Shown one piece after another: positions 12,076 through 28,910 of a DNA stretch of 64,000 nucleotides (positions are counted from its first letter, which is position 1; the number at the start of each line of letters is the position of its first letter). Both the position numbers and the translations under genes were made by a program. The stretch is from the NCBI RefSeq assembly GCF_011082085.1, contig NZ_CP041063.1, positions 3,272,001 through 3,336,000 of the forward strand, written 5' to 3'. Source of the DNA: Bacillus sp. Cs-700 (GTDB taxonomy: Bacteria; Bacillota; Bacilli; Bacillales; Guptibacillaceae). The notes under the pieces were generated by a model that was given only the letters and a program-made list of their open reading frames with translations, was not told the origin of the DNA and ran no database searches.

Positions 12076-12096
12076 ATATTGGAGGTGCGCACAATA

Positions 12097-13056: not shown

Positions 13057-13398
13057 GTGAGTAGTAAAGACAGTCTTTTCTATGAAGTTTTTGAGGTGTT
13101 TAGTAAGAAAACAGATACATCTGCACTCCAGCATCAATTTAGTCTTCTTGCGCCAAATCAGGAATTAGCATTTGTTATGGCAAAAGAGAACTTCTTTAGA
13201 CGTGAACAAGTAGCTGATATTTGGGTCGTGAAGCGAGATCACATAAAACGAATGACTGAAGAAGAAAAAGAAGCAACAAAGCATTTAGAGAAAAGTTATC
13301 GTGAAACGAAAGGATATGGTTATTTAAAGAAAAAATGGCGCCAGTACGAACAAGAGCAGCTTACTGAAAAAGATATCATGGGAGGAGGAGATACCTAA
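13057..13398 (+). CDS. paaB: 1,2-phenylacetyl-CoA epoxidase subunit PaaB
   Basis: A 113-residue structural subunit of the phenylacetyl-CoA epoxidase, which bridges PaaAC heterodimers. The family features are an N-terminal YEVFEVFSKKTDTSALQHQF and a following LAFVMAKENFFRREQVADIW. It begins with GTG six bases after paaA and its stop shares a base with the paaC start (TAATG), so translation is coupled. Small and soluble. Confidence 0.92.
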   Translation: MSSKDSLFYEVFEVFSKKTDTSALQHQFSLLAPNQELAFVMAKENFFRREQVADIWVVKRDHIKRMTEEEKEATKHLEKSYRETKGYGYLKKKWRQYEQEQLTEKDIMGGGDT

Positions 13399-14190: not shown

Positions 14191-14664
14191 ATGATACTTA
14201 AAGAGAAAGTGATGAAGGTGCTTGATACGGTAAAAGATCCAGAGATTCCAGTTGTAAGCGTAGTGGACCTTGGGATGATCCACAACGTTTCTGTTCATCA
14301 TGATCGAGTCACAATTGAAGTGATGCCAACATTCTCGGGGTGTCCTGCGCTAGAAATTATCAAAAGGAATATCGAGATTGCTGTAGAAAGTATTCCTGAA
14401 GTGAATTCTTTATCTGTTGCATTTATTCGGCATCCCATATGGACAACCGAACTTGTTTCGGAGAAGGGGAAGCAGGAGTTGAGAAAGTTTGGTATTGCGC
14501 CACCTAAAGACCGTGTGGAAGGGGAATGGCATGTGCCGTGTCCATATTGTGGATCAGTTTATACAACAATGGATAATATTTTTGGACCAGCCGCTTGTCG
14601 AAGTATTTTGTATTGTAAGTCATGTAAAAATCCATTTGAAGCGATGAAGCCTGTATCAATTTAA
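14191..14664 (+). CDS. paaD: Phenylacetate-CoA oxygenase assembly protein PaaD
   Basis: A 157-residue protein with an N-terminal MIP18/DUF59 domain (KVLDTVKDPEIPVVSVVDLG, then the conserved TFSGCPALE) and a C-terminal zinc-ribbon-like part with CPYCGS and CKSC. PaaD is needed for epoxidase function, probably in metal-centre assembly. ATG 14191 follows GGGGGAGG; an in-frame start at 14128 inside paaC is rejected. Both cysteine pairs are intact, as in longer PaaD proteins. Confidence 0.92.
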   Translation: MILKEKVMKVLDTVKDPEIPVVSVVDLGMIHNVSVHHDRVTIEVMPTFSGCPALEIIKRNIEIAVESIPEVNSLSVAFIRHPIWTTELVSEKGKQELRKFGIAPPKDRVEGEWHVPCPYCGSVYTTMDNIFGPAACRSILYCKSCKNPFEAMKPVSI

Positions 14665-14686: not shown

Positions 14687-15010
14687 ATGATGGTTAAAGT
14701 GATCGCATTGTATAAACAGCCGGAAAACGCCCAGAAGTTTGATGAGCATTATTTTAATACGCACGCCCCAATTACAGCTAAAATTCCTGGACTGAAGAAA
14801 ATGGAAGTGACAAAGATTGTGGGTTCACCTATGGGGAAAAGCGACTATTATTTGATGTGTGAAATGTACTATGAAGATCATGAATCGATGAAAGCGGGAA
14901 TGAAGTCTCAAGAAGGTAAGGCTTCAGGTAAAGATCTAATGAGTTTTGCTGGCGATCTTGTAACACTAATGATTGGTGAAGAAGTTGGAGAAACAGCAGA
15001 TACAAAATAA
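14687..15010 (+). CDS. EthD-family protein in the paa operon
   Basis: A 107-residue ferredoxin-like alpha/beta barrel protein of the EthD family (VKVIALYKQPENAQKFDEHY, FNTHAPITAKIPG). Two consecutive ATG codons (14687, 14690) are possible starts behind AAGAAAGG. It sits where proteobacterial operons carry paaE, the reductase, but it has no flavin, NAD or iron-sulfur motif and cannot replace it. The role is unknown. EthD relatives accompany aromatic and ether degradation genes. Confidence 0.85.
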   Translation: MMVKVIALYKQPENAQKFDEHYFNTHAPITAKIPGLKKMEVTKIVGSPMGKSDYYLMCEMYYEDHESMKAGMKSQEGKASGKDLMSFAGDLVTLMIGEEVGETADTK

Positions 15011-15025: not shown

Positions 15026-15799
15026 ATGTTTGAAACGATTGAATATGAAGTAAAGGATCGCGTAAGTTGGATTCGGTTAAATCGACCGAATAAATTGAAT
15101 GCGTTTACATTTAAAATGAATCAAGAAATAACAGAAGCAATGAAGCTAGCGAATAACGATAATGAAGCTCGTTGTGTGGTGATCACTGGTAATGGAAGAG
15201 CTTTTTGTTCAGGTCAGGATTTAGGTGGCGTTGAAGAAGGTGTGGATCATGGTGAAATGCTGAGGGGTACTTATAATCCGATGGTAAAAGAAATTACCTC
15301 TTCATCTAAACCGGTGATTGCTGCAGTGAACGGTGTGGCGGCAGGTGCAGGCATGAGTCTTGCTCTTGCGTGTGATTTTCGATTAGCTCATGAAAACGCA
15401 AGCTTTATAGAAGCATTTGTTCATGTTGGTCTTGTGCCTGATTCTGGGAGTACTTATTTTCTTCCGCGCCTGATTGGTCATGCGAAAGCGCTAGAACTTG
15501 CGCTACTTGGAGAAAAAGTAAGTGCTTCAGATGCTAAGGAGCTTGGACTTGTGACGCAATTTTTCTCTAATGAACAGTGGGAGAAAGGGATTAATCAGTT
15601 TGCAAACCGTGTAGCTAGTCTTCCGCCCAAAGCGGTAACTCTCATTAAACAGAGCTTACTCCGCAGCTGGGATAGTACCCTTGATGAGGTGCTTGAAATG
15701 GAAGCAGTTGCGCAGGCCGAAGCTGGTCAAACGAAAGATCATAAGGAAGGTCTGCTAGCATTTACTGAGAAACGTAAACCAGTTTTCCAGGGGAGTTAA
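15026..15799 (+). CDS. paaG: 1,2-epoxyphenylacetyl-CoA isomerase (crotonase family, PaaG)
   Basis: A 257-residue crotonase-fold enzyme. PaaG turns the ring epoxide into the seven-membered oxepin-CoA. It shows the oxyanion-hole elements GRAFCSGQDLGG (about residue 58) and NGVAAGAGMSLALACDFRLA (about residue 100), then IEAFVHVGLVPDSGSTYFLP, where the Asp position matches PaaG/PaaB-type isomerases and not classical hydratases. GTGAGGTG precedes ATG 15026. Function follows from the operon as well as the sequence. Confidence 0.9.
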   Translation: MFETIEYEVKDRVSWIRLNRPNKLNAFTFKMNQEITEAMKLANNDNEARCVVITGNGRAFCSGQDLGGVEEGVDHGEMLRGTYNPMVKEITSSSKPVIAAVNGVAAGAGMSLALACDFRLAHENASFIEAFVHVGLVPDSGSTYFLPRLIGHAKALELALLGEKVSASDAKELGLVTQFFSNEQWEKGINQFANRVASLPPKAVTLIKQSLLRSWDSTLDEVLEMEAVAQAEAGQTKDHKEGLLAFTEKRKPVFQGS

Positions 15800-15933: not shown

Positions 15934-16710
15934 ATGTCAGTTGTTACATATGAAGTAAAAAACCATGTTGGATACGTAACTTTAAATCGACCAGAAGTTC
16001 TAAACTGTTTTAATTACGAAACCCTTTCAGTACTGCAGGGAATTGTTGACGATATTTATTCAGATCGCGAGGTTCGTGCCGTTATTTTTTTAGGAGCTGG
16101 TGAAAAGGCTTTCAGTGCAGGAGCTGATTTGAAAGAAAGAAGAACGCTTTCTGAAAGTGAAGTCCGTCGCAACGTTAAAAAAATCCGAGAAGTGTTTTCC
16201 TCAGTTGAATCACTTCCTCAGCCAACCATTGCAGCATTGAATGGGTTTGCGTTTGGTGGAGGATTTGAGCTGGCTCTTGCTTGTGATTTTCGTTATGCAG
16301 TCAAAGGAACAAAAATGGGCTTAACCGAAACAAGTCTAGGGATCATACCTGGGGCGGGAGGAACTCAGCGTTTACCTCGTCTAATTGGCACAGCGAAAGC
16401 GATGGAATTGGTGTTAACAGCACGAAAATTAACATCAGACGAGGCTTACGAATATGGCATCCTAAATGGGGTAGTGGGTCGTGAAGACTTACTTAGGAAA
16501 TGTGAAGAATTAGCCCAGGAAATCTGTCAAAATGCTCCGATTGCAGTGCAACAGGCGAAGTTTGCTGTACTGGAAGGGATGAACGTAGACCGTCACACGG
16601 GTATGGCGATTGAATCGAAAGCATATGAAGTAACCATCCCAACGAACGACCGTCTTGAAGCATTAGATGCTTTTGCAGAAAAAAGGAAACCAAGCTTTAA
16701 AGGGGAGTAG
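15934..16710 (+). CDS. paaF: Enoyl-CoA hydratase/isomerase (PaaF-like)
   Basis: A 258-residue crotonase-fold enzyme. Motifs: GEKAFSAGADLKER (about residue 60), NGFAFGGGFELALACDFRYA (about residue 105) and LTETSLGIIPGAGGTQRLPR, with the paired Glu residues of true enoyl-CoA hydratases. In the paa pathway PaaF hydrates 2,3-dehydroadipyl-CoA. ATG 15934 follows AAGGAGG; a TTG at 15838 would run through the structured leader and is rejected. A role in general beta-oxidation is possible, but the operon supports paa. Confidence 0.87.
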   Translation: MSVVTYEVKNHVGYVTLNRPEVLNCFNYETLSVLQGIVDDIYSDREVRAVIFLGAGEKAFSAGADLKERRTLSESEVRRNVKKIREVFSSVESLPQPTIAALNGFAFGGGFELALACDFRYAVKGTKMGLTETSLGIIPGAGGTQRLPRLIGTAKAMELVLTARKLTSDEAYEYGILNGVVGREDLLRKCEELAQEICQNAPIAVQQAKFAVLEGMNVDRHTGMAIESKAYEVTIPTNDRLEALDAFAEKRKPSFKGE

Positions 16711-16802
16711 TTGTTGCAGAAGAGGAAAGGCTCTGGTAGTATAACATCATATTTGAACCGCGTTTTTATTTCGGAATGCTTTAAGCAAGCGGAGGTATGA
16801 TG

Positions 16803-17696
16803 ATGAGCGAATCTTTGAATACACGCTCCATGATTTTTACATTGTATGGAGAGTATGTTAGACACTATGGAAATGATATTTGGATTGGTAGTTTGATTCG
16901 TCTTCTAAAAGAGTTTGGGCACAATGACCAGTCTGTTCGAGCGGCGATTTCACGAATGAGTAAGCAGGGCTGGGTGGAAGCAAGGAAAGAAGGAAATAAG
17001 AGTTTCTACTATTTAACAAAACGTGGGATTAGGAGAATGGATGAGGCGGCTGAGAGAATATTTAAGCTCCGGCCAGCAGAATGGGATGGAAGATGGCGTA
17101 TGTTTCTTTATACGATCCCTGAAGAGAAGCGACATATTCGAGATGAGCTACGTAAAGAGCTTGTTTGGAGCGGGTTCGGAAGTTCATCCGCTAGCTTATG
17201 GCTTTCACCTAATCACCTTGAAGAACAGGTGAAATGGCTGATCGATAAGTATGAAATTAATGACTACGTTCATTTCTTTGTTGCTGATTATAAAGGTCCA
17301 CACGAAAATCATGCCCTTGTCAATGAATGCTGGGATTTGAATGAAATAAGCAATCGATACCGTGAGTTTATTAAAATGTATAGTGAGCGTTATGTTATCG
17401 ATCGTAGTAAAATTGAAAAAGGGAAAATGAGTGATGGCGACTGTTTTGTAGAACGCGCAAAGCTCGTTCATGAGTACCGGAAGTTTCTATTTATTGATCC
17501 GGGCCTTCCATCCCAACTATTACCTGATGAATGGCCTGGCGAGCATGCAGCCATGTTATTTAGCGATTACTATAAAACGCTCGCAAAACCAGCTTCACGT
17601 TTTTTTGAAGAAGTTTTTCGAGAGGGAAATGAACTGAAAAATAAAGATAATGAGTATGATGCGCTCCAGCATCCTTTGTTATCTGACAGGTCATAG
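16803..17696 (+). CDS. paaX: PaaX-type transcriptional repressor of phenylacetate catabolism
   Basis: A 297-residue protein with the PaaX arrangement: N-terminal winged helix (SMIFTLYGEYVRHYGNDIWI, then FGHNDQSVRAAISRMSKQGW, residues about 8-60), central segment EWDGRWRMFLYTIPEEKRHI, and C-terminal domain ending near LVHEYRKFLFIDPGLPSQLL. PaaX proteins repress paa genes and are released by phenylacetyl-CoA. Three ATGs in a row (16797, 16800, 16803) follow GGAGG; the third has the best spacing. It is the last gene of the paa cluster on this strand and probably acts at the CGTTAAATAAACGT operators at 12061 and 22642. Confidence 0.92.
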   Translation: MSESLNTRSMIFTLYGEYVRHYGNDIWIGSLIRLLKEFGHNDQSVRAAISRMSKQGWVEARKEGNKSFYYLTKRGIRRMDEAAERIFKLRPAEWDGRWRMFLYTIPEEKRHIRDELRKELVWSGFGSSSASLWLSPNHLEEQVKWLIDKYEINDYVHFFVADYKGPHENHALVNECWDLNEISNRYREFIKMYSERYVIDRSKIEKGKMSDGDCFVERAKLVHEYRKFLFIDPGLPSQLLPDEWPGEHAAMLFSDYYKTLAKPASRFFEEVFREGNELKNKDNEYDALQHPLLSDRS

Positions 17697-17705
17697 AAGT
17701 AGAAA

Positions 17706-17735: not shown

Positions 17736-17737
17736 CG

Positions 17738-18262
17738 TTATCTGAGCACTTCATGTACCTGATATTTAAATTCTTTTCCCTTTGTTTTATACGTTTCAAT
17801 CGTTAAGGTGATGAGTTCCTTGTCTTTCTCTGTTAATTGCCTGATTACTTTTCCTGGAGAGCCGAGAACCATAGAATGTGGTGGAATCTTTTTACCAGAA
17901 GGGATCAGCGTATTTGCCCCTATTAACGAACCTTCACCAATCTCAGCCCCGTCAAGTACAATTGCTCCCATACCGATTAATGCTCCATTACGAATCGTAC
18001 ATCCATGTAGAATGGCATTATGGCCAACAGATACTTCGTCTTCTAACACAAGTGGGAACCCTTCAAATAAATGGCACGTACAATTGTCCTGGATATTGCA
18101 CCCTTTTCCAATGGTGATTGGTGCTTCATCCCCTCTTAAAACGGCATTAAACCATACGGTCGATTTTTCTCCAATTGTGACATCCCCAATAATTTTGGCA
18201 CCTGGAGCTACGTACACATCTTCCGCTAGGTCTGGTGTTAAACCATTATACGAAAATAACAT
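17738..18262 (-). CDS. Gamma-carbonic-anhydrase-fold protein (YtoA/PaaY-like)
   Basis: A 174-residue left-handed beta-helix protein of hexapeptide repeats. The zinc-ligand pattern is visible (NCTCHLFEG, then SVGHNAILHGCTI). Family members include B. subtilis YtoA and E. coli PaaY, a thioesterase that clears ring-hydroxylated CoA by-products of the phenylacetate pathway. The position next to paaX supports a PaaY role; YtoA-like proteins elsewhere have no known paa link. Convergent with paaX. Confidence 0.82.
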   Translation of the reverse strand: MLFSYNGLTPDLAEDVYVAPGAKIIGDVTIGEKSTVWFNAVLRGDEAPITIGKGCNIQDNCTCHLFEGFPLVLEDEVSVGHNAILHGCTIRNGALIGMGAIVLDGAEIGEGSLIGANTLIPSGKKIPPHSMVLGSPGKVIRQLTEKDKELITLTIETYKTKGKEFKYQVHEVLR

Positions 18263-18429: not shown

Positions 18430-19398
18430 ATGAAACGTCTTTGTGAGTTGCTGTCCGTTCACTACCCATTTATACAAGGAGGGATGGGGAATATTTCTAG
18501 TCCTGTTCTTGCATCAGCTGTGTCTGAAGCAGGCGGACTCGGAACAATCGGAACGGGTACTTTAACAATAGATGAAGTAGAAATTTTACTTCTTGATATG
18601 AAGAAACGAACTAAGAAAACATTTGCGCTCAATATACCAATTTCGGTTACAGAAAACTTAAAAGGAATGTGTGAATTAGCTGTAAAACACGCTGTACCTG
18701 TCGTCTCTCTTTCAGCCGGTAACCCAGCCCCTTATATTCATTATTTTAAACAAAATAACATTAAGGTTATTTGTGTTACCGCTAGCGTGAAGCATGCACA
18801 AAAAGCTGAAAAGGCAGGAGCCGATCTTATCGTAGGAGAAGGCTTTGAAGCAGCTGGGATCAATTCGCCACTCGAGCTTACGACGATGACGCTTATTCCT
18901 CAACTTGTCGCTAAAGTGCAAATACCTGTCGTTGCTGCAGGAGGGGTAGGTGATTCAAAAGGCTTTGCCGCAGCATTAGCTTTAGGGGCAGAGGGGATTC
19001 AAATGGGAACAAGATTAATAGCAACGAAGGAATCTCCTTATCATGAACGGTATGTTGAAAGGTTACTAGAAGCAGATGATACAGAAACGGTCATCGTAGG
19101 ACGCAGCGTCGGAAAAGTACGTAGGATCTTAAAAACAGCTTATGCAGACCGATTAATTCAAGCGGAAGGAGCTGGTATTCATCCAGATGATTTTGAAGTA
19201 ATGACAGATGAGGAAAAACATCGAATTGGTGCAGTAGAAGGGCGATTGGAAGAGGGATTTATTAATGGCGGACAAATAAGCGGATTAGTTAAGTCCATTC
19301 CGACAGTTCAGGAGCTATTTAAAGAAATGATGGAAGGAGCTGAGCAAATTTACGAGATTCAAATGAAGGCATTTAAACGTTTTTATTTAAAACACTAG
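18430..19398 (+). CDS. Nitronate monooxygenase / FabK-like flavin oxidoreductase
   Basis: A 322-residue FMN-binding TIM-barrel protein of the 2-nitropropane dioxygenase / FabK superfamily. Recognisable parts are YPFIQGGMGNISSPVLASAV at the start, GADLIVGEGFEAAGI, PVVAAGGVGDSKGFAAALAL and GAEGIQMGTRLIATKE (FMN phosphate site). It could oxidise nitronates or reduce enoyl-thioesters; sequence alone does not decide. GGGGGAGG precedes ATG 18430. An 18-bp near-palindrome, ACGTTTTATGTAAAGCGT (18377-18394), lies in its promoter region and may be an operator. Located inside the aromatic region, it could take part there, but that is inference. Confidence 0.82.
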   Translation: MKRLCELLSVHYPFIQGGMGNISSPVLASAVSEAGGLGTIGTGTLTIDEVEILLLDMKKRTKKTFALNIPISVTENLKGMCELAVKHAVPVVSLSAGNPAPYIHYFKQNNIKVICVTASVKHAQKAEKAGADLIVGEGFEAAGINSPLELTTMTLIPQLVAKVQIPVVAAGGVGDSKGFAAALALGAEGIQMGTRLIATKESPYHERYVERLLEADDTETVIVGRSVGKVRRILKTAYADRLIQAEGAGIHPDDFEVMTDEEKHRIGAVEGRLEEGFINGGQISGLVKSIPTVQELFKEMMEGAEQIYEIQMKAFKRFYLKH

Positions 19399-19570
19399 AT
19401 CTATATCAAAATATTATTTTTGAAAATATAAAATAGTAATAATTGTTTGAATACTCGTTGACAAGCTAGATTTGCCAGTGTACCATAACGATACAATATG
19501 CCGGACAGGCGATAGGATTAAAATATGACGACAATAAGTTGGGAGAACTTATTTGGGGGAGGACAGGCAT

Positions 19571-20581
19571 TTGAAATCCTGGAAAAAGTGGATTGGAATT
19601 TCGGCAGTAAGCGTGATGGCACTTGCAGGGTGTGGATCGAACAATTCGTCATCAAACGCAGATGATGAAGGACAAGCAAGTAAAGATACTTATACAATTG
19701 GCGTCACGCAAATCGTGGAGCACCCTTCACTAGATGCAGCTTACGAAGGTTTTAAAATGGCACTCGAAGAGAACGGATTTAAAGAAGGAGATAACGTTAC
19801 TTACGATGTTCAAAATGCTCAGAATGACATGAACAACAGTAACACGATCGCGCAAAACCTTGTAGGTGATGAAGTAGATTTAATTTTTGCGAATTCAACT
19901 CCAAGCGCACAGTCCGCGTTAAATGCCACTTCCGATATTCCGATTGTTTTTACTTCGGTAACGGATCCAGTCGGGGCAAAACTTGTCGAGGATTTTGATA
20001 AGCCAGGTGAGAATATAACAGGTACAACAGATACTCATCCTGAAGCGATTCCAAAAACAATTGAGTTTATTGCCAATGAGTTTGATGCTAAAAATGTTGG
20101 ACTCATCTACAATGCCGGGGAACAAAATTCTGTGGCCCAAGTTGATATTGTGAAAGAAGCAATGGAAGGTAAGGATATGAAAGCTGTTGAGAAGAGTGTT
20201 TCCACTTCAGCTGAGGTAAAGCAAGCAGCTGAAGCGCTTGTTGGTAAAGTAGACGTGATTTACATCGTAACAGATAATACGGTCGTATCAGCGCTCGAAT
20301 CGGTCATTAGCGTAGCAAATGATAAGGACATTCCGATGTTTGCGGGAGAATTTGATTCTGTTAACCGCGGTGCCTTTGCGGCTTATGGTTTTGATTATCA
20401 AGATATTGGCTATGAAGCAGGTCAGATGGCTGCAAAAATTTTAAAAGGTGAAGAAACGACGGCAGAAATTCCAGTACAATACCCTCAGAATTTAAAACTT
20501 AAAATGAATGAAACAGCAGCAGAAGAAATGGGCATCGAAGTGAAGTCAGAATGGGAAGAGATGGGGGAATACACAGAGTAG
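19571..20581 (+). CDS. ABC transporter substrate-binding lipoprotein (TrpX family)
   Basis: A 336-residue extracellular binding protein with a lipoprotein signal: charged start KSWKKW, hydrophobic core, and lipobox LAGC at about residue 19. Family traits (ABC_sub_bind) include YTIGVTQIVEHPSLDAAYEG, PIVFTSVTDPVGAKLV and YAAYGFDYQDIGYEAGQMA. Relatives bind tryptophan, tyrosine or phenylalanine. Start is TTG 19571, eight bases after GGGGGAGG; an earlier TTG at 19553 lies on that site. A TTGACA at 19458-19463 may be the -35. It is separated from its permease gene by a terminator, a common way to give binding-protein excess. Confidence 0.9.
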   Translation: MKSWKKWIGISAVSVMALAGCGSNNSSSNADDEGQASKDTYTIGVTQIVEHPSLDAAYEGFKMALEENGFKEGDNVTYDVQNAQNDMNNSNTIAQNLVGDEVDLIFANSTPSAQSALNATSDIPIVFTSVTDPVGAKLVEDFDKPGENITGTTDTHPEAIPKTIEFIANEFDAKNVGLIYNAGEQNSVAQVDIVKEAMEGKDMKAVEKSVSTSAEVKQAAEALVGKVDVIYIVTDNTVVSALESVISVANDKDIPMFAGEFDSVNRGAFAAYGFDYQDIGYEAGQMAAKILKGEETTAEIPVQYPQNLKLKMNETAAEEMGIEVKSEWEEMGEYTE

Positions 20582-20588
20582 AAAAATG

Positions 20589-20628
20589 GGTTCGAAAAAG
20601 AAGGAGTTTTCTTTTTCGAACCTTTTTT
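20589..20628 (+). terminator. Internal terminator between binding-protein and permease genes
   Basis: GGTTCGAAAAAG pairs with CTTTTTCGAACC, followed by TTTTTT. Partial read-through would yield more binding protein than permease. Confidence 0.85.
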
Positions 20629-20687
20629 ACGAATACCGTTTTTCAAATGGATAAATCCACTGTGAAAAGAATAGGAGGGAGCTCGGT

Positions 20688-21722
20688 ATGGGTTCAGCAA
20701 TGTTTGGAGCAGTAGAATCTGGCATTATATATGCCATTATGGCACTTGGTGTTTATTTATCGTTTCGTATTCTAGATTTTCCCGATTTAACAGTTGATGG
20801 GAGCTTCGTCACTGGTGCAGCTATTGCTGCAATTCTAATTGTAAATGGAACGAATCCTTTTTTTGCAACGCTTATAGCGATCGGAGTGGGGTTTTTAGCG
20901 GGTTGCGTAACAGGCCTCCTACATACAAAAGGGAAAATCAATCCTCTTCTTGCGGGGATTCTTATGATGATTGCACTCTATTCCATAAACTTAAGAATAA
21001 TGGGAAGATCCAATGTTCCTTTGCTAAATGAGGAATCCGTCTTTACCAAATTAGTAGGTTTTTTTGAAGCAACCGGTCTCGATCCTCTACTAAGCAACTT
21101 AGCTTCATCAATTGGATTTGGCAACCTAACATCAACATGGTCTGTTTTAATAAGCATGTTACTTGTTACGACAATTATAAAAATTTTGACGGATTTATTT
21201 TTACGCACGCAAATTGGTCTTGCACTTCGAGCAACAGGTGATAATAAACGAATGATTCGTAGTTTTTCAGCGAACACGGATCAATTTACGATTCTTGGAC
21301 TTGGGCTTTCGAACGCTCTCGTAGCACTTGCCGGTGCATTAATTGCACAGTATAGCTCATTTGCAGATGTTGGCATGGGCATTGGAATGATTATTATTGG
21401 ACTTGCTTCAGTGATTATTGGAGAAGCAATTTTTGGAACACGGACAATAGCAGTGACAACATTCGCTGTAGTTGGAGGAGCGATCGTCTATCGAATTGTT
21501 GTCAGTTTAGCGCTGCGAGTGGATTTCCTGGAGACAGGCGATATGAAATTGATTACAGCTGTAATTGTAATTGCTGCTCTTGTTCTTCCACAATTAATAG
21601 ATGGTCAAAAAGAACGAAATCGAAAGAAGCGAAAACGTCTTCAGCAAGAGTTGAAGTTAAAAGAAATGAAGGATGGAGGCGAAGAGTATGCTTCAACTAA
21701 ATCAAATTCACAAAGTATTTAA
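20688..21722 (+). CDS. ABC transporter permease (TrpY family)
   Basis: A 344-residue inner-membrane permease of the branched-chain-type permease superfamily, as found with TrpX-type binding proteins. Eight or more hydrophobic segments are visible. The motif LRATGDNKRMIRSFSANTDQ (about residues 181-200) is typical, and a basic C-terminal tail follows. GAGGGAGCTCGG precedes ATG 20688. It overlaps the ATPase gene by 35 bases, so the two are co-translated. Likely substrate is an aromatic amino acid, by family and genomic position. Confidence 0.9.
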   Translation: MGSAMFGAVESGIIYAIMALGVYLSFRILDFPDLTVDGSFVTGAAIAAILIVNGTNPFFATLIAIGVGFLAGCVTGLLHTKGKINPLLAGILMMIALYSINLRIMGRSNVPLLNEESVFTKLVGFFEATGLDPLLSNLASSIGFGNLTSTWSVLISMLLVTTIIKILTDLFLRTQIGLALRATGDNKRMIRSFSANTDQFTILGLGLSNALVALAGALIAQYSSFADVGMGIGMIIIGLASVIIGEAIFGTRTIAVTTFAVVGGAIVYRIVVSLALRVDFLETGDMKLITAVIVIAALVLPQLIDGQKERNRKKRKRLQQELKLKEMKDGGEEYASTKSNSQSI

Positions 21723-22482
21723 CGAAGGTACGCTTGATGAGAAGATTGCACTTGAAGATATTAATTTAACGCTTGATCCAGGTGATTTTGTTACAGTGAT
21801 CGGAAGTAACGGCGCAGGGAAATCAACTTTAATGAATATGATTTCCGGGGTATTAACACCTGATGTTGGAGATGTCTTTATTGATGATAAGAAGATTACA
21901 AGCTTACCAGAATATAAGAGGTCAAAGTTAATCGGACGCGTTTTCCAGGATCCTATGGCAGGAACAGCTCCATCCATGACGATACAGGAAAACCTGGCCC
22001 TCGCCTACAATCGAAATCGAAGAAGAACGCTAATGAAAGGCGTGACTAAAAAGTTGAAAACAACTTTCCAGGAAGCACTTGAAACGCTTCATCTTGGTCT
22101 CGAGGATCGCCTGTCTGCGAAAGTTGGCATGCTATCGGGAGGAGAGAGGCAAGCACTGTCCCTTTTAATGGCGACATTCACAGAGCCTAAAATGCTCTTA
22201 TTAGATGAACATACTGCAGCTCTCGATCCTGCCAGAGCAGCTTTAATTACGAAATTGACTGGTGAAATTGTACAAAGAACTCAATTAACAACACTTATGG
22301 TCACTCATAATATGCAACAGGCGCTGGACTTAGGCAACCGACTAATTATGATGGATAGCGGTAAAATTATATTAGAAGTTGAGGGAGAAGATAAGCAGAA
22401 TTTAACAATTGAAGCTCTGCTTCAAGAATTCCAGCGAATCAAAGGTACAAAGATGAACAATGATCGAGCCCTCTTAGGGTAG
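21688..22482 (+). CDS. ABC transporter ATP-binding protein (TrpZ family)
   Basis: A 264-residue ATPase of the TrpXYZ-type importer. Walker A GSNGAGKST (about residue 40), Q-loop VFQDPMAGTAPSMT, signature LSGGERQALSLLMA and Walker B MLLLDEHTAALDP (His in place of the usual Pro, a trait of this family), with switch VTHNMQQALDLG. Start ATG 21688 follows GGAGGCG; the earlier ATG 21673 precedes that site and is rejected. It energises the permease encoded by the overlapping gene. Confidence 0.92.
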   Translation: MLQLNQIHKVFNEGTLDEKIALEDINLTLDPGDFVTVIGSNGAGKSTLMNMISGVLTPDVGDVFIDDKKITSLPEYKRSKLIGRVFQDPMAGTAPSMTIQENLALAYNRNRRRTLMKGVTKKLKTTFQEALETLHLGLEDRLSAKVGMLSGGERQALSLLMATFTEPKMLLLDEHTAALDPARAALITKLTGEIVQRTQLTTLMVTHNMQQALDLGNRLIMMDSGKIILEVEGEDKQNLTIEALLQEFQRIKGTKMNNDRALLG

Positions 22483-22487
22483 GAATT

Positions 22488-22520
22488 GAAACCAATCGGA
22501 TTTCCGGTTGGTTTTTCTTT
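22488..22520 (+). terminator. Terminator after the TrpXYZ-type operon
   Basis: AACCAATCGG-ATTT-CCGGTTGGTT, then TTTC. Confidence 0.82.
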
Positions 22521-22610
22521 AAAATGGCTTATGGAGGTAAGGAGGATTCTTTAGCATACTAACCTTTAGATATTTTCATCATGGACCGTTCTTAATTTTT
22601 TGACAATTCA

Positions 22611-22656
22611 TTGACGGTTATTAGACGTGATGTTATTATATCGTTAAATAAACGTC
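22611..22656 (+). promoter_or_regulatory. Phenylalanine-operon promoter with the same operator as paaA
   Basis: TTGACG (22611-22616), 17-bp spacer, TATTAT (22634-22639), then CGTTAAATAAACGT at 22642-22655. The core is identical in all 14 bases and in distance from the -10 box to the element before paaA. This predicts joint control of the two operons. Confidence 0.8.
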
Positions 22657-22682
22657 ATATATTATGGTGTGAGGTGTAGCTG

Positions 22683-23078
22683 GTGAAACAGGGAATATCG
22701 GTTGGGCAAAGTGCTGTCATTCATGTAGAGGTCACGCCAGATATGTATGCTCAGTTTGAGGGTGAAATCATCCATCAGGCTTATTCGACTGTATCGATGG
22801 TCTATCATATGGAGTGGGCCGCAAGACAGTTAATTCTTCCTTACCTTGAAGATGATGAGGAGGGAATCGGCGGCGGTGTTGAGGTAAAGCATATGGGATC
22901 AGCGTGTGAAGGGCAGTCCCTTACAATACGAGCCGTTATTATTACACTTACACACAAATCGGTTATTAGCAGAATAGATGTTAAAAAAGGAAGAGAGCTT
23001 ATTGGGACAGGAAAAGTGATTCAGTTTATCCTCCCTAAAAAGGTGATCGACGAGAAATTAGAAAACGCTAAAATGTAA
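22683..23078 (+). CDS. Hot-dog-fold acyl-CoA thioesterase family protein
   Basis: A 131-residue protein of the thioesterase superfamily, similar in pattern to FlK-type thioesterases: a helix with a conserved Glu in [11 protein letters not shown] (about residues 40-50) and a His in [15 protein letters not shown] (about residue 70). It probably hydrolyses an acyl-CoA, or guards CoA when the pathway stalls. First gene of the phenylalanine dehydrogenase / 2-oxoacid dehydrogenase operon, GTG start at 22683 after GAGGTG. PaaI, the thioesterase of proteobacterial paa clusters, is also a hot-dog protein; this is not a close PaaI by eye. Confidence 0.75.
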
Positions 23079-23103
23079 GCGATTTCATAAAGGGGTGAAA
23101 ATC

Positions 23104-24204
23104 GTGTTTGATCGTATAGAAGAGCATGAGCAATTATTATTTTGTAATGATGCTGATACAGGTCTAAAAGCCATAATCGCCATACATAACACAACGCTAG
23201 GGCCAGCGCTTGGTGGTTGTCGAATGCGTCCCTATGAAACGGTAGATGATGCCATTGAAGATGTCTTAAGACTTTCCAAAGGCATGACGTATAAATGTGC
23301 AGCGGCTGATGTGGATTTTGGAGGTGGCAAGGCAGTAATTATCGGTGATCCGCTGATAGATCGGACGCCTGAGCTTTTTCGTGCTTTTGGTCAATTTGTA
23401 GAATCGTTGAATGGACGATTTTACACAGGAACAGATATGGGAACAACTCCTGATAATTTTGTTCATTCACTAAGAGAAAGCAGCTGTATTGTAGGGGTTC
23501 CAGAAGAATATGGTGGAAGTGGAGATTCCTCCATTCCAACAGCTAACGGCGTTCTTTACGGCATACAAGCTACGAATAAAACTGTTTTCGGTTCAGAAGA
23601 ACTGGGTGGGAGGACATATGCGATTCAAGGTCTTGGGAAGGTTGGCTATAAAGTCGCGGAAATGCTTCTTGAAAAAGGAGCAGATTTGATTGTTTCAGAT
23701 ATTAATCAATCAGCTATAGATCGTTTAATTCAACGAGCGATTGAGCTCAAGCAGGGGGTAAAGGTCGTTTCTGGGGATTACATTTACGAAGCAGACGCCG
23801 ATGTTTTTGTTCCCTGTGCACTTGGAGGGATCATTAATGATCAAACCATCCATAAGCTTAAAGTACAAGCAATTGTCGGTTCTGCGAACAATCAGCTTTT
23901 AACAAATGAGCACGGCGATCAGCTCAATGAACGCGGTATTCTTTATGCGCCTGATTATATTGTAAATAGCGGGGGCTTAATCCAGGTATCTGATGAGTTG
24001 TATTCACCAAATCCTAAACGAGTGCTTCAAAAAACAAAGGCGATTTACGATACGTTATTGTCCATTTTTGAGCAGGCGGAGACTCACTCATTTTCAACGA
24101 TAAAAGCGGCGAATCTTTTTTGTGAACAGCGAATTGAAAGCCGAAAACGGAGAAATAGCTTCTTTGCGCATAAGAAACCAGGGAAATGGTCTGTTCGCTC
24201 TTAG
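23104..24204 (+). CDS. pdh: Phenylalanine dehydrogenase (amino-acid dehydrogenase family)
   Basis: A 366-residue NAD-dependent dehydrogenase that deaminates an amino acid to its 2-oxoacid. The catalytic region has [31 protein letters not shown] (active-site Lys) and [15 protein letters not shown]; the Rossmann motif is [14 protein letters not shown]. These segments, [16 protein letters not shown], and the C-terminus [13 protein letters not shown] match Bacillus phenylalanine dehydrogenases as I recall them better than leucine dehydrogenase (which has AAAGLNLGGGK). Start GTG 23104 follows GGGGTG; GTG 23095 overlaps that site. The product phenylpyruvate would feed the E1/E2/E3 genes downstream. 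Confidence 0.85.
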
Positions 24205-24229
24205 TATTAATGTGAGAGGGGGGAGTTTA

Positions 24230-25294
24230 ATGGACGTAACTGAGCAATTCCCATTTATTCAATTAGTCAATGGAGAAGGCAAACAAATGGAAGAAAATCC
24301 ATCCATTACGGTAGCGAATGCAAAACGATTTTATGAACAAATGATGTTTTCTCGTATGTTCGATCGAAAAGCTGTTAATCTCCAGCGTCAGGGTCGAATC
24401 GGTACCTATGCTCCGTTTGAAGGCCAAGAAGGCGCGCAAATTGGAAGTGCTCTAGCTTTAGAAGATGGTGACTGGATGTTTCCTACTTATCGTGATCATG
24501 CCGCAACGGCAGCTTTTGGGCATTCACTCGTCAATATCTTTCTTTACTGGAAAGGATGTATTGAAGGGTGTGTTCCTCCAGAAGGAAAACACATTTTTCC
24601 CCCATCCGTTCCGATTGCTTCCCAAATTCTTCATGCGACTGGTACAGCTTGGGCTGAGAAGAAAAAAGGAAGCGACAGAGTATCGCTTGTATATTTTGGA
24701 GACGGTGCAACATCGGAAGGGGATTTTCACGAGGGATTAAATTTTGCAAGTGTGTTCCAAATCCCAGTCGTTTTCTTTAATCAAAATAATGGCTATGCCA
24801 TTAGCGTTCCGATCGAGCGACAGATGAATACAAAAACCATTGCACAAAAATCCTTGGCTTATGACATGCCTGGTGTAAGAGTGGATGGAAATGATGTTTT
24901 TGCTGTTTATAGTGAAACGCTAAAAGCAGTCGAACGTGCGAGAAAAGGGAAAGGTCCAACGTTGATTGAGGCGGTTACATGGCGCTATGGAGCTCACACG
25001 ACGACCGATGAGCCATCGAAATATCGTGACCAGGGAGAAAGTGAACGGAGAAGGCAGACGGATGATCCAATTACTCGCGTTGAAAAGTATCTGAAAGCTG
25101 AAGGTAGCTGGGATGCCGATTGGGAGGAAGAGCTTAAGAAAAAATCTGAGAAACGATTACAACTTGCTGTCGATGAAATGGAAAAAACAAAAAAATCGGA
25201 TGAAGGACTTATTTTTGATCATGTGTTTGGCACGGATGTTTGGCCTGTTCAAGAACAAAAGAAGCGCTTTTTTCATAAGGAGAGTGGGAAATGA
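24230..25294 (+). CDS. 2-oxoacid dehydrogenase E1 component, alpha subunit
   Basis: A 354-residue thiamine-diphosphate subunit. The cofactor motif runs from GDGATSEGDFHEGLNFA to FFNQNNGYAIS (GDG...NN). Other features are YAPFEGQEGAQIGSALAL and the phosphorylation-loop-like RYGAHTTTDEPSKYR. ATG 24230 follows GAGGGGGGAG; the longer frame from 24122 overlaps the dehydrogenase gene and is rejected. Its stop overlaps the beta-subunit start by four bases. It decarboxylates a 2-oxoacid; with phenylalanine dehydrogenase upstream, phenylpyruvate is the likely substrate. Branched-chain oxoacids are the main alternative. Confidence 0.9.
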   Translation: MDVTEQFPFIQLVNGEGKQMEENPSITVANAKRFYEQMMFSRMFDRKAVNLQRQGRIGTYAPFEGQEGAQIGSALALEDGDWMFPTYRDHAATAAFGHSLVNIFLYWKGCIEGCVPPEGKHIFPPSVPIASQILHATGTAWAEKKKGSDRVSLVYFGDGATSEGDFHEGLNFASVFQIPVVFFNQNNGYAISVPIERQMNTKTIAQKSLAYDMPGVRVDGNDVFAVYSETLKAVERARKGKGPTLIEAVTWRYGAHTTTDEPSKYRDQGESERRRQTDDPITRVEKYLKAEGSWDADWEEELKKKSEKRLQLAVDEMEKTKKSDEGLIFDHVFGTDVWPVQEQKKRFFHKESGK

Positions 25295-26286
25295 GCATAG
25301 CGGTCAATATGAAAAAGCTAACGATGGTGCAGGCGATTACAGAAGCCCTAAAGGTGGTTCTTGAAGAAGATGAGTCTGTCCTTGTTCTTGGAGAGGATGT
25401 AGGAAGAAACGGCGGAGTTTTTAGAGCAACTGACGGCTTGTTTGAACTGTTTGGTGATCAGCGAGTGATGGATACACCTCTTGCTGAATCAGGTTTAATT
25501 GGTACATCAATTGGACTTGCGATGAATGGATATACTCCTGTTGTAGAGATCCAGTTTCTTGGCTTTATTTATCCAGGCTTTAATCAATTAATTACTCATG
25601 CAACGCGCATTCGAACGCGAACACAAAGTCGATATACCGTGCCACTTACCATTCGAGTACCTTATGGAGCAGGTGTACGGGCCCCTGAAATTCATAGTGA
25701 TAGTACAGAAGCACTTTTTACTCACATACCTGGGTTGAAGGTAGTCGTTCCTTCAACGCCACATGATGCAAAGGGGCTATTAATTAGTAGTATTAAAGAC
25801 CCGGATCCGGTGCTGTTTCTTGAGCCGATGAAAATGTATCGGACCGGTAAAGGTGACGTTCCTACAGGAAGTTATACAATTCCGCTTGGTAAAGGTTATA
25901 GGCGGCGTAATGGAGAGGATGTATCCCTTTTTGCATGGGGAGCAATGGTAAAAGTTGCGGAAGAAGCAGCGAAAAAAGCCGCTGCTAAAGGAATAGAATG
26001 TGATGTTATCGATCTGCGTTCTCTCTATCCTTTAGATAAAGAACTGATCGCAGAATCGGTGCAGAAAACAGGTAGAGCGGTTATTATTCATGAAGCCCCT
26101 TCCTCTGGAGGAGTAGGTAGTGAAGTGATTTCAATCATTAATGATACTTCGTTTCTTTATATGAGGTCTCCAATTAAAAAAGTAACTGGTTATGATGCGC
26201 CTGTTCCTTTGTTTACGCTAGAAGATGATTATTTACCGGATGCTAACAAAGTTTTACGAGCGATTGAAGAGACAGCTCGCTTCTGA
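25291..26286 (+). CDS. 2-oxoacid dehydrogenase E1 component, beta subunit
   Basis: A 331-residue partner of the E1 alpha subunit in a heterotetramer. It contains VLGEDVGRNGGVFRATDGL, DTPLAESGLIGTSIGLAMNG (with the conserved Glu that activates thiamine diphosphate), RVPYGAGVRAPEIHSDSTEA and the C-terminal domain with DVIDLRSLYPLD. The ATGA overlap with the alpha gene signals translational coupling. Length is standard for PdhB/BkdAB-type subunits. Confidence 0.92.
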   Translation: MSIAVNMKKLTMVQAITEALKVVLEEDESVLVLGEDVGRNGGVFRATDGLFELFGDQRVMDTPLAESGLIGTSIGLAMNGYTPVVEIQFLGFIYPGFNQLITHATRIRTRTQSRYTVPLTIRVPYGAGVRAPEIHSDSTEALFTHIPGLKVVVPSTPHDAKGLLISSIKDPDPVLFLEPMKMYRTGKGDVPTGSYTIPLGKGYRRRNGEDVSLFAWGAMVKVAEEAAKKAAAKGIECDVIDLRSLYPLDKELIAESVQKTGRAVIIHEAPSSGGVGSEVISIINDTSFLYMRSPIKKVTGYDAPVPLFTLEDDYLPDANKVLRAIEETARF

Positions 26287-26300
26287 AGGGAGGTTGAATG

Positions 26301-27455
26301 ATGGATGTGAAATTGCATGACATTGGAGAAGGAATGTCAGAAGGCGAAATCGTGCAGCTTCTAGTTAAGCCTGGCGATCATGTGCTAGTTGATCAGCCAT
26401 TAGTCGAAGTACAGACCGATAAAGTGACGGCGGAGCTTCCGTCTCCTTTTGCGGGAAAAGTAGAAACGATTTATGTAGAAGCAGGTGAAGTTATTGAAGT
26501 AGGAGGGACGCTGTTAACGATTTCTCCAATTCCACAGCACGCCGAGCAAACACTGCTTCCACACCGAAAGAAAAGAATTTTAGCGGCCCCTTTTACGAGA
26601 AAAATTGCGCGCGAAAATAATGTCGATATTGAGGAAGTTAAGGGGACAGGGCCAGCAGGGCGAATTACTGATGAAGATGTTTTTAGGCATCTTGCGACAA
26701 CTCAAAAGCCCGAAGAAAAAGAAACAAAAGCAATAGAGAAAGAAATAGAGAAAGAAGCAACTGAACGAACGATTCCGTTTTCAACAAGACGGAAACAAAT
26801 TTCAGCGAAAATGAAAAAATCCACTTTAACCATTCCACATGTAACTCATTTTGACGAAGTTGATGTAACGAACATCTTAGAAATGAAAAAAGCAATGAAA
26901 GAAGGTAAGGGTCAATCTATTTCGGTTGCTGCTTTTTATATTAAAGCGGTATGCGTGGCGTTAAAAGAGTTCCCTATTTTTAACTCGGAGTTGAGAGAAG
27001 AAGAAGGGCAGATTTGCTTGAAGCCCGATCTTCATATTGGTTTAGCTACTGATACGGAAGAAGGACTAATCGTTCCGGTTATCCATCATTGTGATAAACT
27101 CTCAATCAACGAAATTCATAAAAAAATGAAAAATCTACACCATGCAGCAATGAATAATGAACTCACAAGCAAAAACCTTAGCGAGAGTACATTTACAATT
27201 AGTAATGCAGGCCCACTTGGCAGTACGGGTGCAACGCCGATTATTAATTACCCACAAGTTGCCCTTCTAGCTTTCCATAAAACGAAAAAAATGCCCGTCG
27301 TTAAAGAAAATGATGAGATTGTTATTCGATCGATAATGTCAATTTCCATGACTTTTGATCATCGTATCGCAGATGGAGGGACATCTATGCGTTTTACTAA
27401 TCGTTTTATTGAATTGATTGAACAACCTTCCCTACTATTAACGGAGCTTGTCTAA
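26301..27455 (+). CDS. 2-oxoacid dehydrogenase E2 component (dihydrolipoamide acyltransferase)
   Basis: A 384-residue core subunit. Domains: one lipoyl domain (residues 1-75, lipoyl Lys in EVQTDKVTAELPSP), a peripheral-subunit-binding domain (about 88-130: AAPFTRKIARENNVDIEEV, GTGPAGRITDEDV), a charged Glu/Lys linker, and the catalytic domain ending with MTFDHRIADGGTSMRF (active-site His and Asp). Two ATGs (26298, 26301) follow GGGAGG; the second is better spaced. It transfers the acyl group, predicted phenylacetyl, to CoA. Lipoylation may depend on LplJ at 9.2 kb. Confidence 0.92.
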   Translation: MDVKLHDIGEGMSEGEIVQLLVKPGDHVLVDQPLVEVQTDKVTAELPSPFAGKVETIYVEAGEVIEVGGTLLTISPIPQHAEQTLLPHRKKRILAAPFTRKIARENNVDIEEVKGTGPAGRITDEDVFRHLATTQKPEEKETKAIEKEIEKEATERTIPFSTRRKQISAKMKKSTLTIPHVTHFDEVDVTNILEMKKAMKEGKGQSISVAAFYIKAVCVALKEFPIFNSELREEEGQICLKPDLHIGLATDTEEGLIVPVIHHCDKLSINEIHKKMKNLHHAAMNNELTSKNLSESTFTISNAGPLGSTGATPIINYPQVALLAFHKTKKMPVVKENDEIVIRSIMSISMTFDHRIADGGTSMRFTNRFIELIEQPSLLLTELV

Positions 27456-28858
27456 TGGTGGTAGGTGAAATTATACATGAAAAAGACGTTGTCATAATTG
27501 GAGCAGGTCCAGCCGGATATGAAGCGGCATTTCGTGCTGCTAAAAATGGGAGAGACGTTACGCTAATTGATCGATTTCGTCCGGGTGGGGAATGCCTCCA
27601 TAGCGGATGCATTCCTTCAAAACTGCTTGCGGCAGCTGCTAGGAAAATGCATGAAAAGACACCAGGAATTAAGGTGACACCCGCATTTTGCATGGACAAA
27701 TGGCAGGAAGAAAAGAATTCGCTAATTGCTACGATGGAAAAAGGACTACAAGCCCGCTTTCATTCAAGCAACATCGAATGTGTAAAAGGACAGGCATCTT
27801 TTCTCTCAGAAAACAGGATTGGAGCTGAACAGGGGGAGAAATTTGAAGTGTGGTCATTTAACCATGCCATTCTTGCGACGGGAAGCAGCCCAATTATGCC
27901 TAACTTTCTTTCATCTTCTTCTCACCCTAACATTCTTCCTTTAGAACATCTTTATACCTTATCGTCTCTTCCAAATCAGCTTATCCTGTTTGGATCTGAT
28001 TATCTCACAATAGAGGCTGCTAGCACGTTTCGTGCGCTAGGAGTTGAAGTAACGATCGTGACGCATCAAGAGACCATTCTTCCTGAATGGGATGAAAGCA
28101 TTCAACGAGAATCGATAAGGCAGTTTAAGAAGCAAAAAGTCTCCTTGTACACAGGAGTATCCAATTGTCTGGTGAAGGAACGTGAAATGACTCTAGTTTT
28201 TTGTCATGCTAAAGGAGAAACCGTAGAAGTAGAAACAGAGATGATCGTCTATTCAATTGGACGAGTCGGAAATAGCGATTCGTTAGGGGTGGACCAAGTA
28301 GGTATTGATATACAGGATGATGGCACCATTCCTATTTCTGAGGAATGTAAAACAACAAGAGCAAATATTTATGCTTGTGGTGATCTAACAGGAGGACCTT
28401 CCCTCGCAGTGAAAGGAATCAAGCAGGGAAAGACTGCTGCAGATCATTGCAGTGGGGTAAAGTCTACTTTCTCGCTTGAATGCCTTCCAAAGGTCATACA
28501 CACCCAAACTCCGATATCGTCTGTAGGGTTAACCAAAACTGAAGCGAAAGAAGCAGGCTACGAAGTGATGACAGCAAGCTCCTCAATGAAAGCAAACGGT
28601 TATGCGATGGTCACTGGAAACACAGAAGGAAAGGTTGTGATCCATCGTGATCGAGAAAGTCATGTATTGTTAGGGTTTCATGCCATAGGAGCAGGTGCAG
28701 TAGAACTCATTGAAAAAGCAGCGCTTGCTATTGAAATGGGTGCGAGGGATGAAGACTTTATCTATCCTTATACACCGCATCCAGGTTATGGAGAAGCATG
28801 GACAGATGCAGTTGAAAGTACAGTGGAGAACAAGGTGGAAACAAAGATAAGTCAATAG
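27455..28858 (+). CDS. 2-oxoacid dehydrogenase E3 component (dihydrolipoyl dehydrogenase)
   Basis: A 467-residue flavoprotein that reoxidises the lipoyl arm with NAD. FAD site IIGAGPAGYEAAFRAAKNG, redox disulfide GGECLHSGCIPSK (usual GGTCLNVGCIPSK altered outside the cysteines), second FAD site YACGDLTGG, and the C-terminal active base in TPHPGYGEAW, where the common form is HPHPTLSE; His and Glu are kept. The NAD-binding glycine motif is degenerate: LILFGSDYLTIEAASTFRAL has Ser-Asp where Gly-Gly is normal. Its start shares a base with the E2 stop. Probably dedicated to this complex. Confidence 0.88.
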   Translation: MVVGEIIHEKDVVIIGAGPAGYEAAFRAAKNGRDVTLIDRFRPGGECLHSGCIPSKLLAAAARKMHEKTPGIKVTPAFCMDKWQEEKNSLIATMEKGLQARFHSSNIECVKGQASFLSENRIGAEQGEKFEVWSFNHAILATGSSPIMPNFLSSSSHPNILPLEHLYTLSSLPNQLILFGSDYLTIEAASTFRALGVEVTIVTHQETILPEWDESIQRESIRQFKKQKVSLYTGVSNCLVKEREMTLVFCHAKGETVEVETEMIVYSIGRVGNSDSLGVDQVGIDIQDDGTIPISEECKTTRANIYACGDLTGGPSLAVKGIKQGKTAADHCSGVKSTFSLECLPKVIHTQTPISSVGLTKTEAKEAGYEVMTASSSMKANGYAMVTGNTEGKVVIHRDRESHVLLGFHAIGAGAVELIEKAALAIEMGARDEDFIYPYTPHPGYGEAWTDAVESTVENKVETKISQ

Positions 28859-28860: not shown

Positions 28861-28886
28861 AAAACGCTCCGATTGGAGCGTTTTTT
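28861..28886 (+). terminator. Terminator at the end of the phenylalanine operon
   Basis: AAAACGCTCC-GATT-GGAGCGTTTTTT. Confidence 0.92.
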
Positions 28887-28910
28887 CATTTGCTTTTAAA
28901 AATCTACTGA

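Follow-up and report, generated by a model that had tools for sequence, protein, structure and literature searches.

A stretch of 64,000 nucleotides from Bacillus sp. Cs-700 (NZ_CP041063.1, positions 3,272,001 to 3,336,000; G000:C1:3272001-3336000, here called the window) carries, next to paa genes, an operon for a thioesterase, a phenylalanine dehydrogenase (PheDH) and the E1alpha, E1beta, E2 and E3 subunits of an oxoacid dehydrogenase complex. The genome is a single contig of 4.30 Mb, and its closest named relatives, as judged by the PheDH gene, are Pseudalkalibacillus hwajinpoensis and its kin. We think it probable that this is an operon for a phenylpyruvate dehydrogenase complex with a catabolic role, supplying the epoxidase PaaABCD directly. 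Such a route, from phenylalanine through phenylpyruvate to phenylacetyl-coenzyme A (CoA) by a dedicated complex, had been proposed in a first-pass annotation of the same DNA. Comparative linkage, the dehydrogenase pocket and a shared operator now favor it; a gene for the ligase PaaK elsewhere in the genome counts against it, and the activity itself is predicted.

One can envision the following pathway, for which we infer from context the substrate of the complex (phenylpyruvate), that of the importer, and the role of the thioesterase. The amino acid would enter through a TrpXYZ-type importer, and PheDH would deaminate L-phenylalanine to phenylpyruvate with NAD+. E1alpha and E1beta, with thiamine diphosphate, would decarboxylate phenylpyruvate and load the phenylacetyl group on the lipoyl arm of E2; E2 would transfer it to CoA, and E3 would reoxidize the lipoyl group with NAD+. 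The resulting phenylacetyl-CoA would pass directly to the epoxidase of the adjoining paa genes, without going through free phenylacetate or incurring the ATP cost of PaaK. We imagine that the FlK-type thioesterase serves as a safety valve, freeing CoA from stalled acyl-CoA in a PaaI-like role, and that PaaX represses both operons via a shared palindrome until phenylacetyl-CoA appears.

The genes lie on the + strand in the order paaABCD, paaX, importer, thioesterase, PheDH, E1alpha, E1beta, E2, and E3, and every gene of the operon beside the paa genes was found intact, as first described. The operon begins with a FlK-family (hotdog) thioesterase (22683..23078; PF22636, 98.7 bits, cut-off 27), followed by the L-phenylalanine dehydrogenase, a member of the Glu/Leu/Phe dehydrogenases (23095..24204). 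The E1alpha reading frame is open from 24122, with a likely start at ATG 24230, behind GAGGGGGGAG (24230..25294; PF00676). E1beta (25291..26286; PF02779 and PF02780) is followed by E2, a dihydrolipoyl acyltransferase with one lipoyl domain (26298..27455; PF00364, PF02817, and PF00198), and E3, a dihydrolipoyl dehydrogenase (27455..28858; PF07992 and PF02852; TIGR01350 at 365 bits, under the cut-off of 409). A terminator-like hairpin with a T run, ACGCTCCGATTGGAGCGTTTTTTC, was read directly on the + strand 3′ of E3 (28864..28887). The lipoyl, E3-binding, and catalytic domains of E2 and the catalytic motifs of the complex are all intact: we read GDG...NN in E1alpha, what we take to be the lipoyl lysine motif TDK together with DHR..DGG in E2, and GGECLHSGC and HPGYGE in E3, the E1alpha and E3 labels likewise being presumed.

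The specificity of the dehydrogenase can be judged against a model of the Bacillus badius enzyme which, in the available part of its description, names four catalytic residues (K78, K90, D125, and N276) and 10 pocket residues (PMC8543943). Aligned at a constant offset of 11, all 14 are identical in the window enzyme, which thus has in common with the B. badius PheDH all 10 hydrophobic pocket and all four catalytic residues given in that part (PMC8543943). For comparison, we took the best 80 of 222 PheDH relatives, at 70 to 98% identity, together with their surroundings (the named loci). The catalytic Lys, Lys, Asp, and Asn are found in 80/80 of these and in 20/20 context rows; the leucine dehydrogenase (LeuDH) of the same genome, 49% identical to the window enzyme, has them too, and a LeuDH is also its best solved relative. 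At four pocket sites the genome's own LeuDH differs, having Leu, Ala, Thr, and Val in place of Phe86, Gly123, Val144, and Leu306, and the PheDH residue stands at each of the four in all 80 named orthologues. The dehydrogenase is therefore of the PheDH rather than the leucine type at every published pocket position, as had been suggested. A strong preference for leucine had been named as fatal to the proposal; as far as sequence tells, the pocket gives no sign of one. Two loci, L110 and L142, have PheDH in duplicate, the thioesterase gene separating the copies.

Could the operon instead encode another branched-chain oxoacid dehydrogenase (BKD) and a leucine dehydrogenase, serve branched-chain fatty acids or leucine catabolism, and owe its place next to paa to chance or to co-regulation? 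Like the Bacillus Bkd operon, it joins an amino-acid dehydrogenase to E1alpha, E1beta, E2, and E3; its Glu/Leu/Phe/Val-type dehydrogenase is related to LeuDH at the 49% given above, and Bkd-type E1 enzymes are permissive. However, a complete bkdR-ptb-bcd-buk-lpdV-bkdAA-AB-B operon with its own LeuDH (names by eye) lies at 1.047-1.057 Mb, so the strain does not depend on the present complex for branched-chain oxoacids; the first-pass annotation had said that its proposal would fall if a second bkd locus were missing, and it is present. The window dehydrogenase lacks all four of the pocket residues typical of LeuDH, the operon has no ptb or buk and a paa-type operator, the linkage to paa is conserved, and E1alpha falls outside the BKD clade. 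We consider this explanation most improbable.

Besides 2-oxoglutarate dehydrogenase, the genome has three E1alpha genes that score over the Pfam cut-off and have a partner operon: that of the window, that of bkd, and one at 94 kb, in the genome's own pyruvate dehydrogenase (PDH) operon. When 84 E1alpha rows were placed in a maximum-likelihood tree, the window complex grouped with the other paa-linked complexes and their relatives, 53 rows in all (support, 96/83). The window E1alpha lies outside both the BKD clade (21 rows; 100/100) and the PDH clade (9 rows, including the genome's own PdhA; 100/100), and its group is placed nearer to PDH than to BKD. Only 14 rows are named ones, the window included, and the remainder were picked as matches of the window E1alpha, so that which rows belong to the group follows in part from how they were chosen, whereas the linkage to paa does not. 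The branched-chain complexes offered earlier as the model are thus not the closest, since by this phylogeny E1 branches with PDH rather than with BKD. Branching more deeply within the E1 group are L138-L141, L130, and L131, which have a PheDH-like dehydrogenase and enoyl-CoA-hydratase-like genes and lie away from paaA; at two diagnostic sites their dehydrogenase has Gly/Leu in five of the six loci and Gly/Val in L130.

At eight E1alpha positions the group is at least 90% uniform and unlike both PDH and BKD rows. The clearest of these, Thr95 (ORF numbering), is found in 53/53 group rows and 79/79 named rows, at a site with Phe in 9/9 PDH and 21/21 BKD rows, and Trp143 stands in 53/53 group rows where PDH has Ser. 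By hand count, the Thr95 site aligns with Phe66 of the Thermus E1alpha 1um9, a residue that presumably lines the substrate side-chain pocket; Thr, being smaller than Phe, would there make room for a phenyl ring. Similarly, His103 of E1beta is uniform in 118/118 rows, compared to Gln in the 9 PDH and Glu in the 21 BKD rows.

These residues also bear on whether the operon encodes a second pyruvate dehydrogenase, co-regulated with paa for growth on aromatics. E1alpha scores 449 bits with the curated pyruvate dehydrogenase model TIGR03181, over its cut-off of 411, and its best match among solved structures is 1w85, at 272 bits; both are points of likeness to the PdhABCD of Bacilli and fit the position of the group nearer PDH. 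But the genome's own PDH falls in a different, fully supported clade, the group has Thr and Trp in place of the PDH Phe and Ser, and the window complex is tied to amino-acid deamination and to paa. A second PDH would leave unexplained both the PheDH, or the HisC-type aminotransferase, beside E1 and the genomes without PaaK described below. We give this reading very little chance.

A shared operator links the two operons, and here the first-pass annotation stands: a palindrome with the consensus TNACGTTN5AACGTNA is found as TGACGTTAAATAAACGTTA before paaA (12058..12076), directly 3′ of a TATAAT-like -10 box (by eye), and as TATCGTTAAATAAACGTCA before the thioesterase gene (22639..22657), 3′ of a -10-like box (by eye). 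The paaA site matches 12/12 fixed positions and the thioesterase site 11/12; the next best in the window matches 10. Genome-wide, no site but that of paaA matches perfectly, and with up to two mismatches there are 23 forward matches versus 15 for the reversed control pattern. Since the thioesterase site shares its single mismatch with two other genomic sites, the evidence lies in position and conservation and not in rarity. Those two sites, near proline-degradation-like and transporter-like genes (by eye), were considered as regulon members and rejected. As for conservation, a site with at least 11/14 positions of TGACGTTN5AACGTCA lies upstream of the operon in 69/80 named loci. Fourteen other genomes contributed 20 short stretches from the 5′ side of paaA, paaK, or PheDH; scored per stretch and not tied gene by gene, 18 have a site of at least 11/12 (shuffled expectation, none), and the upstream stretches L189 and L192 have none. 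We infer that PaaX (16797..17696; TIGR02277, 335 bits, cut-off 265) is the candidate reader of this palindrome.

The neighborhood is well kept among the named loci, with the order paaX, FabK-like gene, trpXYZ, thioesterase, PheDH, E1alpha, E1beta, E2, and E3 widely conserved. E1alpha, E1beta, and E2 accompany PheDH in 79/80; the remaining locus, L067, stops at a contig end. The thioesterase is found in 79/80, trpXYZ in 73/80, and E3 in 71/80. PaaX is within the fetched stretch of 69/80, and in four of the 11 loci without it (L018, L027, L065, and L091) the DNA upstream of PheDH is shorter than 6 kb.

The importer consists of a TrpX-type substrate-binding protein (19553..20581, with TTG 19571, as in the first-pass annotation, the likelier start; PF04392, 282 bits), a TrpY-type permease (20688..21722; PF02653 match over cut-off, 99.9e-27 class), and a TrpZ-type ATPase (21673..22482, with ATG 21688 also possible; label by eye; 74/80 named loci). 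The suggestion that it brings in the amino acid gains from its place between the two operons and loses from the score with the curated TrpX model NF041285 (269.6 bits, under the cut-off of 390); its predicted substrate is therefore assigned by position only. In L115 and L116, where TrpXYZ was unmatched, a sodium-dependent (NSS) transporter-like protein (by eye) directly precedes PheDH and the complex, and on two haloarchaeal plasmids (L199 and L200) the annotation also places a sodium-dependent transporter ahead of pdhA.

A TrpXYZ-type importer would also suit a broad aromatic oxoacid dehydrogenase, acting on phenylpyruvate, 4-hydroxyphenylpyruvate, and indolepyruvate, whose phenylacetyl-CoA would enter paa and whose other products would exit as free acids via the thioesterase. 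The near-constant thioesterase gene is consistent with this, as is L039, in which the complex is followed (15960-20962) by 4-hydroxyphenylpyruvate dioxygenase, a HisC-type aminotransferase, and homogentisate-pathway-like genes (by eye). The linkage, however, is to paa, and the substrate of the PaaABCD epoxidase is phenylacetyl-CoA; the dehydrogenase has the PheDH pocket and scores 358 bits with the tryptophan dehydrogenase model NF035922, under its cut-off of 600. We regard broad specificity as unlikely, and the phenylpyruvate-specific complex as the better account of the locus.

Linkage between the complex and paa extends across 398 Bacilli genomes, 147 of which have PaaA over cut-off. With a strong PheDH match defined as E ≤ 5.3e-148, a cut set after seeing the score gap, 42 genomes from 16 genera (19 from one genus) have PheDH, and all 42 have PaaA (hypergeometric, 1e-20 by genome and 4e-6 by genus, phylogeny being ignored). 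E1alpha lies within 4.1 kb of PheDH in 41/42, the exception being G011, and directly beside it in 38; PheDH lies within 30 kb of PaaA in 38/42. A further 27 genomes with weaker PheDH matches (55 to 60% identity) were excluded, and 25 of these also have PaaA over cut-off (not G054 and G157). Starting from E1alpha, with 122 of about 150 listed rows used and some 28 weaker rows and any unlisted ones left out, 54 of the 147 PaaA genomes have it no more than 30 kb from PaaA; a dehydrogenase lies alongside in 37 of these and not in the other 17. A control on 41 genomes took in 97 E1alpha-family matches, long 2-oxoglutarate-dehydrogenase-type rows being left out; 53 are in PaaA genomes, and the six near PaaA are all matches of the window E1alpha.

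Where no PheDH was matched, another gene may supply the oxoacid, as a HisC-type aminotransferase is an alternative way to phenylpyruvate. Such a gene directly precedes E1alpha in L119, L121, L122, L132, L133, L135, and L136, and in L105 it precedes E1alpha with the thioesterase in between; the call is by TIGR01141 over cut-off for L105 and L121 and by similarity to L121 for the others. In L104 and L120 the nearby amino-acid gene is TrpXYZ. These neighbors, together with 4-hydroxyphenylpyruvate dioxygenase, suggest that the amino acids concerned are aromatic and not branched-chain. In L121, a histidine-ammonia-lyase-type gene (7126-8661; TIGR01225 over cut-off) lies directly before the HisC-type aminotransferase and E1alpha.

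Genomes without PaaK suggest how far the complex may have gone in taking over. At E 1e-140, PaaK is missing from 13 of the 54 genomes with E1alpha near paaA versus 7 of the 93 other PaaA genomes (Fisher p 0.011, phylogeny being ignored). These 20 were read by eye and include two divergent PaaK genes and two broken ones: in a search of 15 genomes with the PaaK model under a permissive threshold, G039 and G069 gave 192 and 99 bits, and PaaK is in two pieces in G179 (C46) and G251 (L113), where the adjoining complex looks intact. The window genome, G000, has one PaaK, and in 10 of the 15 (G215, G263, G281, G272, G308, G246, G323, G257, G355, and G011) nothing scored above 48.4 bits. Phenylacetyl-CoA in a genome without PaaK would have to come from another source. 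Nine of the 10 have E1alpha near paaA (not G011), and of the eight such genomes that were fetched (all but G281), E2 was matched in seven (not in G257). None of the 15 gave an IorA match over cut-off. Most of these genomes are drafts, 98 to 100% complete, so that single absences of PaaK may be gaps. On balance, it seems fairly likely that there is a coherent family of catabolic phenylpyruvate dehydrogenases across many Bacilli families, fed by PheDH or a HisC-type aminotransferase, that it has replaced PaaK altogether in several lineages, and that paa serves there as a phenylalanine rather than a phenylacetate pathway.

In Bacillus sp. Cs-700 itself, the earlier statement that PaaK is absent holds for the window and fails for the genome. 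A PaaK-type gene of 449 amino acids lies alone, 1.07 Mb away (G000:C1:2215810-2217099; TIGR02155, 645.8-646.1 bits, cut-off 646.3), which rules out the absence of PaaK from the whole genome; it does not have the shared operator (best match, 9/12, in L015). No IorA was found over cut-off in this genome. Within the window, an AMP-ligase (10449-11975) was tried as a stand-in for PaaK and rejected, as it scores over cut-off with a long-chain acyl-CoA ligase model and has no paa operator. The palindrome before it, TGAATGACTGCTCATTCA (10415-10432), which we take to be FadR-like, suggests fatty-acid rather than paa control.

A number of observations weigh against a direct and obligatory route. With PaaK in the genome, the route is not obligatory here. 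None of PaaZ, PaaH, and PaaJ was recognized by eye in the window or its paa cluster (12079-17696), and the closest aldehyde dehydrogenase of the genome to that of the relative L076 is 49% identical (C1:3226074), which leaves the lower pathway and ring cleavage unproven in this strain. The thioesterase operator ties at one mismatch with sites near unrelated genes, as noted above, and only 4/34 more distant context loci have a site of at least 11/12 (L104, L112, L118, and L137). To the match of E1alpha with the pyruvate dehydrogenase model can be added L163, which has Thr95 and lies outside the group, its weakly supported place in the tree (83/63) being with PDH. Part of the E1 group lies away from paaA, including L124 and L126-L128, where no amino-acid-deaminating gene was recognized by eye beside the complex; nor are other matches of the window E1alpha in the control near PaaA (e.g., G016, G019, G021, and G034). 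G011 (L108) has PheDH, the thioesterase, TrpXYZ, and paa, and neither an E1alpha match nor PaaK, and in G118, G370, and G341, PheDH and E1alpha lie away from paaA. In G341 (L107), PheDH, a PaaK-like ligase, and E1 are clustered together, far from paaA.

The lack of recognized lower-pathway genes could indicate that phenylacetyl-CoA is made for biosynthesis, either of omega-phenyl fatty acids or, should the paa pathway be incomplete, of tropone-like products, and the phenylpyruvate dehydrogenase PglB/PglC discussed below is itself biosynthetic. Against this, the importer and NAD-linked deamination suggest catabolism, and in L076 the genes between paaG and paaX include those for an aldehyde dehydrogenase, a 3-hydroxyacyl-CoA dehydrogenase, and a thiolase. 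We think a biosynthetic role highly unlikely and continue to favor a catabolic complex feeding PaaABCD.

That leaves the question of novelty. In the parts of two papers available, PglB/PglC of Streptomyces pristinaespiralis is described as PDH-like, proposed to convert phenylpyruvate to phenylacetyl-CoA for pristinamycin L-phenylglycine, and named a phenylpyruvate dehydrogenase (PMC7089894, PMC10685826); a phenylpyruvate dehydrogenase, which was new to the first-pass annotation, had thus already been named. Going by those partial descriptions, the two systems have in common PDH-like E1alpha and E1beta and a thioesterase gene within the same operon (PMC7089894, PMC10685826). PglB/PglC is biosynthetic and part of an antibiotic cluster, with alpha and beta subunits alone named in the operon in the parts available; the window complex, in contrast, is catabolic by context, comes with PheDH, its own E2 and usually E3, and lies beside paa under a paa operator. 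Plasmid searches aimed at a PglB relative identified no pgl sequence; they gave complexes from haloarchaea and from Streptomyces, and none of the four stretches read has a paa gene annotated. The Streptomyces stretch L202 has no pgl-like set, and the Streptomyces plasmid matches are listed as 40% identical. A literature search limited to open-licence papers found no description of a catabolic, PheDH-coupled, paa-linked complex. Given this and the PglB/PglC precedent, the window complex would be new as a variant and not as a kind of enzyme.

The paa pathway is usually described as beginning with PaaK. Both PaaK and the indolepyruvate/phenylpyruvate ferredoxin oxidoreductase IorAB yield phenylacetyl-CoA, as would the proposed complex; PaaK differs in using free phenylacetate and ATP, and IorAB in being ferredoxin dependent. 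A 2026 survey of paa inspected the gene neighborhoods of PaaK, and the word "phenylpyruvate" is absent from its main text, as far as that text was available (PMC13186573). With PaaK neighborhoods at its center, paa clusters without PaaK could have escaped it, judging from the same portion (PMC13186573). If our proposal is correct, an ATP-free entry from phenylalanine would explain such clusters, and genes that are likely named pdhA at present would be corrected. PheDHs are mainly familiar as industrial enzymes, those of the B. badius type and presumably also those of Lysinibacillus sphaericus and Thermoactinomyces, and they would gain a physiological partner. A culturable Bacillus relative would allow a direct test of the proposal.

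The remaining genes of the window concern the paa cluster and its surroundings and are on the + strand unless stated. The epoxidase subunit A gene, paaA, spans 12079..13050 (TIGR02156, 452 bits, cut-off 280), with a GTG at about 12097 as the likely true start (by eye). It is followed by paaB (13057..13398, subunit B, placed by its position between paaA and paaC and by matches at the same place in relatives), paaC (13398..14177, subunit C, by position and matches in relatives), and paaD (14191..14664; TIGR02159, 178 bits, cut-off 108). Next in the paa operon come a gene for an EthD-like small protein (14687..15010; label by eye), which adjoins paaD in relatives, and two for PaaG/PaaF-like enoyl-CoA hydratases/isomerases (15026..15799 and 15934..16710; by eye and by place in relatives). 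Between paaX and the importer lie a gene for a PaaY-like hexapeptide-repeat protein on the - strand (17738..18262; label by eye from the translation) and one for a FabK/nitronate-monooxygenase-like flavoprotein (18430..19398; TIGR03151, 283 bits, under the cut-off of 453), which is found in 76/80 named loci. Just 5′ of the AMP-ligase, no shared operator was seen at a lipoate-protein-ligase-like gene (by eye; 9240-10229), which lies in the same window as the lipoyl-bearing E2.

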